Of a DNA stretch of 64,000 bases, positions 41,373-44,300 are shown piece after piece. Every line of letters begins with the position of its first letter. Position 1 is the stretch's first letter. Position numbers and translations under genes: made by a program. The notes below the pieces were generated by a model. The model did not search any database. It was not told where the DNA came from and saw only the letters and a program-made list of their open reading frames with translations. Source of the DNA: Acidobacteriota bacterium (GTDB lineage Bacteria; Acidobacteriota; Holophagae; Holophagales; Holophagaceae); the NCBI GenBank assembly GCA_016195985.1, contig JACPYP010000016.1, positions 248,001 to 312,000 on the forward strand, read 5' to 3'.

Positions 41373-44300
41373 ATGCCTGGCCACGCCTCCGAACCAAACG
41401 ATCATCCCCTCCTCCGGAACCTGAATGATCCCCAGCGGGAGGCCGTGCGCCATGCCCATGGTCCCCTGCTCATCCTGGCGGGGGCCGGTTCGGGCAAGAC
41501 CACGGTGATCACGAGGCGCATCGCCTGGCTCATCGAGGAAGAGGGGGTCCAGCCGGGCTCCATCCTGGCCATGACCTTCACGAACAAGGCCGCCGAGGAG
41601 ATGCGGGAGCGCGTGCAGCGCCTGGTCTCCGTGCCTGCGAGTCAGATGTGGGTGAGCACGTTCCACAGTTTCTGCACGCGGATTCTGCGGCGGGAGGGCG
41701 ACCGCACGCCCGTGGGCCGGGACTTCGTCATCTTCGATCCCTCGGATCAGAAGAGCCTCGTCAAGCAGGTGCTGGCGGAATTGAAGCTGCCCGAGAAGCA
41801 GTTCCACCCCAAGAAGGTGCTGGAGCTCATCAGCGATTTCAAGAACCGCTGCCTGCTGCCGGAGGAGGCCCGGGAAGAGGCGTTGGATCCCTGGACCCGA
41901 AAAGTGCTGGACGCCTACGACCTCTACCAGAAAGGCCTGAAGAACCACCGCGCCTGCGACTTCGACGACCTGCTGCTGTGGACCGAGCGCCTCTTCCGGG
42001 ACACGGCGATGCAATCGGTCTATGCCGAGCGCTTCAAGTTCATCCTGGTGGACGAATACCAGGACACCAACCGCGCCCAGTACCTGCTGGTGCAGCATCT
42101 GGCGCGGAGGCACCACAACATCTGCGTGGTGGGCGATGAAGACCAGTGCCTGGCCAAGGGCACGCGCATCCGCCTGGCGGATGGGAGGGAACGGCCCATC
42201 GAGAAACTGGCGCCGGGGGACCTGGTGCTTGCGGGCCGCGGCAGCGGCGAGTTCGGGCCCGCGAAGGTGCTGAAAACCTCCGCCCGCAGCCGGAATGGGC
42301 TTGGGATCCGCATCACCACCGAGTCTGGCCGGAGGCTCCTCAGCACGGCGGAGCACGTCCATTTTGCGGGCTACCGCCTGGGATCCACGCCGCAGCTTCA
42401 TTTCGTCTACCTCATGCGCAAGCAGGGAGTGGGCTGGCGCCTGGGCACCAGCCAGACTCACACCCGCGGCCAGGTGAAGCCGGTGGTGGGGTTCCTTCAG
42501 AGGGCGCGGCAGGAGCATGCGGATGAGGTGTGGGTGCTGTCCACCCATGGGAGCGAGCAGGAAGCCCGCCTCCAGGAAGAGATCTGGTCGCTGCGCTACC
42601 AACTGCCGACGCTGCCTTTCGTCCCCCGGAAAGGCGAATCCACGCATGGATTGGTTCATGACGCCCGGGCCATCCGCCAGGTGTTCGCGGCGGTGGATTC
42701 GCAGGCCGGAGCCAAGCGCCTGCTGGTGGACCTGGGCATGGCGGTGGAAGTCCCCCATCACCGGGCCCAGGCCAGCACGGGGAAACGCCGTCAGGTGGTG
42801 GTGACCCTTTGCGGCGACCGGCGGGGAAAGAGTCCCATGCATCGCATCTCCATGGTGGGGCAGGATGCTGGAGACCGCCGCGTTCTTGAGGGGCTGGGTC
42901 TGTCGGTGCGGCCGGCGAAGGCCGGTTCGAGCAGCTGGCGAGTAGAAACATGCGCGGCCTCCTTTTCGGAAGTTCGGAAAACGGCGGATCGCATCCGGAA
43001 ACACCTGGAAGCTGACATCCTGCTCCAGGCCCGGCTGGGCGCCAGCCCTGGCCGGGAATCCAGCAGCCTTCCTTTCCTGCCCGCCTGCAATGTGAAACCG
43101 GGCATGGCCCTGTTCGACGGCGAAGGCGGGCTGGAGGTGGTGGCCAAGGTGGAGCGGGTGCCCCTGAAGGCCGAAGTCTTCGATCTGGACATCGAAGGCG
43201 TCCACAACTTCATCGCCAACGGATGCCTGACCCACAACTCGATCTATGGCTGGCGCGGCGCCGACATCCGCAACATCCTCGACTTCCAGCAGGACTTCCC
43301 GGAAGCCATGCGCATCGAGCTGCTGCAGAACTACCGCTCCACGGAAAAGATCCTGGATGCGGCCTCCCAGGTGATCTCCAACAACTCGCAGCGCGTGGAG
43401 GGCAAGGGCGCCCTGAGGACGGACCTGGGCGAAGGCGAGTCGATCCTCTTCAAGCTGTGCGACGAGGGACGGCTGGAGGCGGAGTGGGTGGTGCAGCGCA
43501 TCCAGGAGCTGCGCTACCAGGAGCCGGACGCGAAGATCGCCGTGCTCTACCGCGCCAACTGGCAGTCCCGGCAGATGGAAGAGGCGCTGCGGGCCCAGAA
43601 CTTGGCCTACCGGCTGGTGGGCGGCGTGAAGTTCTACGAGCGCCAGGAAGTGAAGGATCTCATCTCGTACCTGCGCCTCATCTCGAACCCCTTCGACCTG
43701 GTGAGCTTCCGCCGCTGCGTGAACGCGCCCACCCGGGGCGTGGGGCCCACGACGCTGGGCAAGATCGAGGGCGCCATTCCCGAGGGCGGCACGCCGCTGG
43801 AAGGGCTGGCCGTGCTGCTCCGTTCCGGCGAGCTCAAGGGCCGAGCCCAGCGCGAAATGGGCAAGTTCCTGGATCTGTTCCAGCGGGCCGCGGGCGAACG
43901 CGAGGCCCAGGGCCTGGCGGGCCTGGTGAAATGGGTGCTGCAGGAAAGCGGGTACCTGCAGAGCCTCGAGGATGAAGCCACCCTCGAAGCTGAAGGCCGC
44001 ATCCGCAACCTGGAGGAATTCCTCAGCGCCGCCGCGGAAATGGAATCGCTGGGCCTGCGCCTTTCGGAGTTCCTGGACCGCATCACCCTGGCGGCGGACA
44101 CGGATCAGATCGAAGAGGCCGCCCACCTCAGTCTCATGACCATCCATTGCGCCAAGGGCCTCGAATTCCCCTTCGTGTTCGTGGTGGGCATGGAGGAGGA
44201 TGTCTTCCCCAACCGCAACGCCCGGGAGACGCCGGAAGGGTTGGAGGAGGAGCGCCGCCTCTTCTACGTGGCGATCACCCGCGCCCAGCGCCGCCTCACC

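Follow-up and report, generated by a model that had tools for sequence, protein, structure and literature searches.

A class-1 intein in motif III of an Acidobacteriota PcrA-type helicase and its probable GIY-YIG-like central domain

A helicase gene of a Holophagaceae bacterium (Acidobacteriota) is split within motif III by 364 in-frame codons, which raises the question of what this insert is and what the part of it beyond splicing might do. The gene lies in the window, the whole stretch of 64,000 nucleotides analysed (contig JACPYP010000016.1, positions 248,001 to 312,000), and encodes a PcrA/UvrD-type SF1 helicase precursor of 1128 aa in a single open frame (41373..44759, + strand, start codon as listed). 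The precursor is matched by TIGR01073 (pcrA, 744 bits, in two stretches) and also by PF00580 and PF13361. Its N-extein (41373..42146, +) ends in CVVGDEDQ, the first half of motif III, and its C-extein (43239..44759, +, including the stop codon) begins with the second half, SIYGWRGAD. Just upstream of the helicase region is a tRNA-Leu (anticodon TAA, window positions 40762-40846, +), across which the long ORF calls are spurious.

The interrupting segment (42147..43238, +; Cys1 to Asn364, 364 aa) begins CLAKGT and ends CLTHN, with the Cys1 codon TGC at 42147, the Asn364 codon AAC ending at 43238 and the Ser+1 codon TCG starting at 43239. This insert in motif III of the PcrA/UvrD helicase is a class-1 intein. 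An earlier note, made from the letters alone, had delimited an intein here correctly to the base and had listed a full set of splicing residues, and this set is indeed complete: Cys1 (codon 42147-42149, +, in the Hint N-terminal part), block B T67-A-E-H70 (His70 codon 42354-42356, +), penultimate His363, Asn364 and Ser+1, with THN at the C-terminus. The comparison with Hint profiles that it proposed also agreed: PF14890 (Intein_splicing) scored barely above its curated cut-off (36.8 versus 35.8 bits) and matched no other region of the source genome, TIGR01443 passed clearly (27.6 versus 15.6 bits), and the N-terminal intein profiles gave weak matches. An AlphaFold model of the intein built on 56 relatives reached a mean pLDDT of 91.4. 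Together with the fold match and a profile match to solved mini-inteins, it delimits a Hint N-terminal part (residues 1-79, 42147..42383, +); the C-terminal part (residues 307-364, 43065..43238, +) contains blocks F and G and ends in GCLTHN. These two parts combined align with solved mini-inteins over ~130 residues at Z ~20 and rmsd 1.5-1.7 Å, the best matches being 6y75 (Z 20.5) and the Mtu RecA mini-intein (Z 20.3; rmsd 1.5-1.6 Å for both), and residues 80-306 fall outside the splicing domain. The intein as a whole was also matched by NF038136 (Rv2578c intein family), but the central domain by itself was not, so this match was put down to Hint similarity and rejected as an identification.

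The same note had observed that VVGDEDQ and SIYGWRGAD join exactly when the insert is removed, and had suggested looking for intein-free alleles. PcrA was found in 72 of 77 Holophagaceae-family genomes and, in a search with the joined helicase, is uninterrupted in ~52 of the 72. The 30 intein-free alleles that were read at base level all have the exact junction N(L/I)CVVGDEDQ/SIYGWRGADI (slash, insertion point), free of scar or duplication, and the empty-site DNA reads GATGAAGACCAG followed directly by TCGATCTATGGC. The intein interrupts PcrA in 20/77 family genomes (13/47 within the genus), always in the same open frame, and wherever both ends of the insert could be read they fall on the same codon boundaries; it is therefore not a chance feature. 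From its residues, its fold and the empty alleles, the Hint domain would be expected to excise the intein post-translationally, joining VVGDEDQ to SIYGWRGAD.

Searched with the joined helicase, the source genome gave no second PcrA at E<=1e-100, and splicing should therefore be needed for helicase function, in line with what the earlier note had said of DNA repair; likewise, no second uninterrupted pcrA copy was found at E<=1e-100 in the intein-bearing Holophagaceae genomes. That note had gone further and suggested a redox response through Cys1, and a redox-gated conditional intein regulating DNA repair might be read from the single pcrA copy, which makes splicing probably necessary, and from the cysteines at N-extein position -8, at 1 and at 360. 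However, Cys1 is generic to class-1 inteins, Cys360 is confined, among the family inteins read, to the window and its nearest relative (L002), the family shows no conserved pair of cysteines at the junctions, and 52 of 72 relatives do without the intein. Beyond the presence of Cys1 nothing specific favours the redox proposal, and we consider such regulation very improbable.

What the earlier note missed is residues 80-306: the unusual part of this intein is a GIY-YIG-like domain shared with phage inteins. The insert begins with this domain proper (residues 80-165, 42384..42641, +), delimited by conservation, models, fold matches and profile comparison, whose key codons start at 42408 (Tyr88), 42438 (Arg98), 42444 (Gly100), 42501 (Arg119), 42531 (Trp129) and 42576 (Glu144). 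A helical extension of two helices follows (residues 166-206, 42642..42764, +), ending at the invariant Pro203, and is a possible candidate for a DNA-contacting part. The second sub-domain (residues 207-306, 42765..43064, +) consists of strands and helices in the order b-b-a-b-b-a-b; it is present in the bacterial PcrA inteins and the long phage helicase inteins and missing from the 275-290-aa versions. Its comparison with the PDB gave chance matches only. Its strand order might also be read as LAGLIDADG-like; the Pfam matches of the 56 members at E<=1 include no LAGLIDADG profile.

The position of the insert within Hint is also unusual. When the family profile was aligned with the Spl DnaX mini-intein, positions up to 74 fell at chain residue 72 and those from 221 at residue 79, while with gp41-1 query positions 71 and 315 fell at residues 67 and 80, which places the insert between block B and the next strand, A-x-N-x-x-x-G-M. 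The usual endonuclease loop, which on the basis of the gp41-1 split site we take to lie after that strand, would correspond to roughly residues 324-328 (43116-43130) and holds no insert in this intein. These alignments and the model suggest that the insert sits upstream of this usual loop; other intein endonucleases are found at one conserved loop (PMC6801210).

What fold does the central domain have? Modelled alone, residues 80-206 gave a pLDDT of 90.6 and a beta-beta-alpha-beta-alpha topology, with strands at 85-92 and 96-103, a helix at 115-122, a strand at 127-134 and a helix at 137-151. VIA-align comparison with 993 PDB chains placed GIY-YIG proteins (UPF0213 BH0048, Slx1 and UvrC) at all of ranks 1-14, with Z from 4.8 to 3.3; unrelated folds begin at Z 3.2, and every GIY-YIG Z is below 5 and individually weak, so that this predicted likeness would carry moderate weight, through agreement among matches. 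Against viral models, the top three matches belong to the same intein family and the later named ones are largely GIY-YIG, T5orf172 and group I intron homing nucleases, at E 0.01 and weaker. Foldseek with the domain alone returned nothing significant from the PDB (best E 0.58, unrelated), and a sequence profile of the domain hit PDB chains by one chance match only. In none of the 56 members do residues 80-165 match a Pfam, NCBIfam or named PHROG family, and for GIY-YIG-type families the Pfam search extended to E<=1.

Profile-profile comparison with GIY-YIG families of the same phylum (UvrC, UPF0213 and T5orf172) scored 22.6, and the maximum of 200 column shuffles was 16.6; comparisons with T5orf172 only (9/200) and with UPF0213 only (3/200) were not clearly above shuffles. 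The alignment equates Tyr88 with the Tyr of GIY, Gly100 with the Gly of YIG and Glu144 with the catalytic Glu of UvrC. Tyr88 and Gly100 are conserved in 56/56 relatives, Glu144 in 55/56 and Arg119 in 54/56, the last owing its place on the catalytic helix to the model and not to the profile alignment. With Arg119 on helix 115-122 and Glu144 on helix 137-151, the arrangement matches the superfamily pattern, in which helix 1 bears a catalytic Arg and the last core helix a Glu. In place of literal GIY and YIG the domain has (V/T)YL and R(V/I/L)G, hence the name GIY-YIG-like. Variants such as YTG in UPF0213 and KIG in T5orf172 relatives occur in the superfamily, and because they are tolerated there the altered motifs lower the case for membership but do not exclude it. 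Model and sequence comparisons together make it probable that the domain belongs to the GIY-YIG superfamily.

A domain of some other fold or function, for instance one that binds DNA or RNA to control splicing and resembles GIY-YIG in topology only, would account for the low single Z-scores (4.8 at most), for the failure of GIY-YIG sequence profiles to recognise the domain, and for the invariant Trp129 and Pro203, which are not GIY-YIG features. We nevertheless think it unlikely, since the best 14 of the 993 aligned chains are all GIY-YIG proteins, the list of viral models is rich in GIY-YIG nucleases and the catalytic Glu is in register in the profile alignment.

The domain is widespread in viruses. 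Scanning viral contigs with a single protein gave no match, whereas a profile scan found the domain in at least 120 IMG/VR stretches, 80 of which were retained. Its consensus matched 66 phage records, of which the annotated ones listed are helicase genes, methylase genes or unnamed ORFs, with no free-standing copy shown among them; across phage records, IMG/VR stretches, Holophagaceae genomes and plasmids the domain was seen only within inteins. Carriers include UvrD helicase inteins of the phages SPO1, CampHawk, phi92, PaulScherrer and Klebsiella phage KP13-16, inserted, as in the bacterial gene, at this point of motif III (VGDxxQ/SIY), as well as methylase inteins of Streptococcus suis phages and a Providencia plasmid and a helicase intein of a Thermobispora plasmid, these two plasmid records being the only ones returned. 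At least two unrelated kinds of host protein, UvrD/PcrA helicases and ParB-like/DNA methylases, are thus represented in phages, plasmids and bacteria. Beyond Holophagaceae, one other genome of the Acidobacteriota sample carries the domain, and an Acetobacteraceae match corresponds to 1/385 genomes in the alphaproteobacterial class. Of the intein-bearing methylase genes, that of the Streptococcus suis phage (L028) is annotated only as an adenine-specific methyltransferase, and for the Providencia plasmid (L026) the table used lists no gene in the stretch.

Intein and helicase histories were compared for signs of mobility. The helicase tree requires nine changes of intein presence or absence, at least six of them forced by supported branches; one row, L033, forms a very long branch, and its position was given no weight. 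The bacterial inteins group together in the intein tree (SH-aLRT 99), with long phage UvrD-helicase inteins inserted at the same site as their sister group, and this relationship makes movement between phages and bacteria plausible. Between loci L010 and L011, 9/1092 intein bases differ compared with 79/1881 bases of the flanking helicase (p 1.6e-8), with a sharp change at the intein edges; the pattern fits a recent exchange of the intein only, as would result from homing, although other recombination could also produce it. Most other pairs lack such an excess, and in most genus pairs intein divergence is about equal to or greater than that of the helicase, which means that recent transfer is not typical. 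Of all intein parts, the GIY-YIG-like domain is under the strongest constraint within the genus, with a pN/pS of 0.153 compared with 0.30-0.35 for the others and 0.204 for the helicase.

These divergence values, and the loss of putative catalytic residues in some members with intact splicing residues, could instead describe an ordinary intein that is mostly inherited vertically and frequently lost, its insert a degenerate or structural filler devoid of nuclease activity. The L038 intein (3001-3984) has lost the equivalents of both Arg119 and Glu144, and L037 has lost Arg119. We regard filler as rather unlikely: the domain is constrained, its candidate catalytic residues persist in 54-56 of the 56 distant relatives, and at least once (L010/L011) the intein alone appears to have been exchanged recently. 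L038 is likely a natural inactive nuclease variant, as expected of decay.

We therefore favour, with a probability of roughly 0.75, a mobile motif III class-1 intein in PcrA whose nested, divergent GIY-YIG-type nuclease drives homing. By predicted fold and conserved key residues, the in-frame domain within Hint would be a divergent nuclease of the GIY-YIG superfamily; it would most likely cut pcrA alleles that lack the intein, at their conserved motif III sequence, and repair of the cut allele would copy the intein in. A broader proposal, to which we give a little less than an even chance, is that these elements form an undescribed class of intein endonuclease, namely a GIY-YIG-type homing nuclease lying in-frame in cis-splicing inteins at another Hint loop, widespread in phage helicases and methylases, carried into bacterial pcrA and homing today.

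How does this intein compare with known systems? UvrD/Rep/PcrA inteins have been listed before (PMC5874633), and the inteins of SPO1 gp34.33, CampHawk UvrD and the UvrD/Rep proteins of Justusliebigvirus (PaulScherrer, phi92), annotated as such in GenBank, share both the central domain and the motif III site, so an intein at this site is ordinary. They differ in residing in phage genes, in being only ~25% identical and in having no nuclease domain annotated in the records read; the SPO1-type intein (275 aa) is without the second sub-domain. LAGLIDADG inteins (PI-SceI, PI-PfuI and TliVMA) likewise combine Hint, which matches theirs at Z ~16-18, with a nested endonuclease, but this is of another fold and lies at the conserved insertion loop, whereas the insert here comes earlier in Hint (PMC6801210). 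With UvrC N-domain, Slx1, UPF0213, T5orf172 and I-TevI, the central domain shares the predicted topology and the Tyr, Gly, Arg and Glu set; it differs from GIY-YIG nucleases in its altered GIY/YIG, a longer loop between strand 2 and helix 1, the additional invariant Trp129 and Pro203, and its occurrence so far only in inteins.

Intein endonucleases have been described as mostly LAGLIDADG, with HNH in some cases, and according to a 2006 survey no GIY-YIG nucleases were then known from inteins (PMC1564403). One review names GIY-YIG, in its section on inteins, among homing-endonuclease families generally and gives no example (PMC7765530). In AceL NrdHF, a split class 3 intein, the GIY-YIG gene is free-standing and lies between the halves of a fractured gene, whereas the nuclease-like domain here is nested in-frame in a cis class 1 intein and at another position (PMC7891396). 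We found no description of a GIY-YIG nuclease nested in an intein in the open-access papers searched; an earlier one may exist elsewhere. If the favoured reading is true, intein mobility arose with another nuclease type, Hint tolerates insertion at a second point, and an unnamed, common phage domain gains a testable function, with laboratory phages already carrying it (SPO1, and the phi92 relatives in the BASEL set).

At L110 (1165-3903) and L111 (214-2958), profile matches suggest at least three consecutive Hint units per open frame, in which the central domain is absent. The helicase gene of Klebsiella phage KP13-16 (L025, 698-4294) apparently has two inteins, one in the P-loop with LAGLIDADG-like motifs recognised by eye and one in motif III of the GIY-YIG-like family, and a single helicase open frame of IMGVR_UViG_3300028920_000035 (L075, 1699-6255) contains three inteins of the GIY-YIG-like family.
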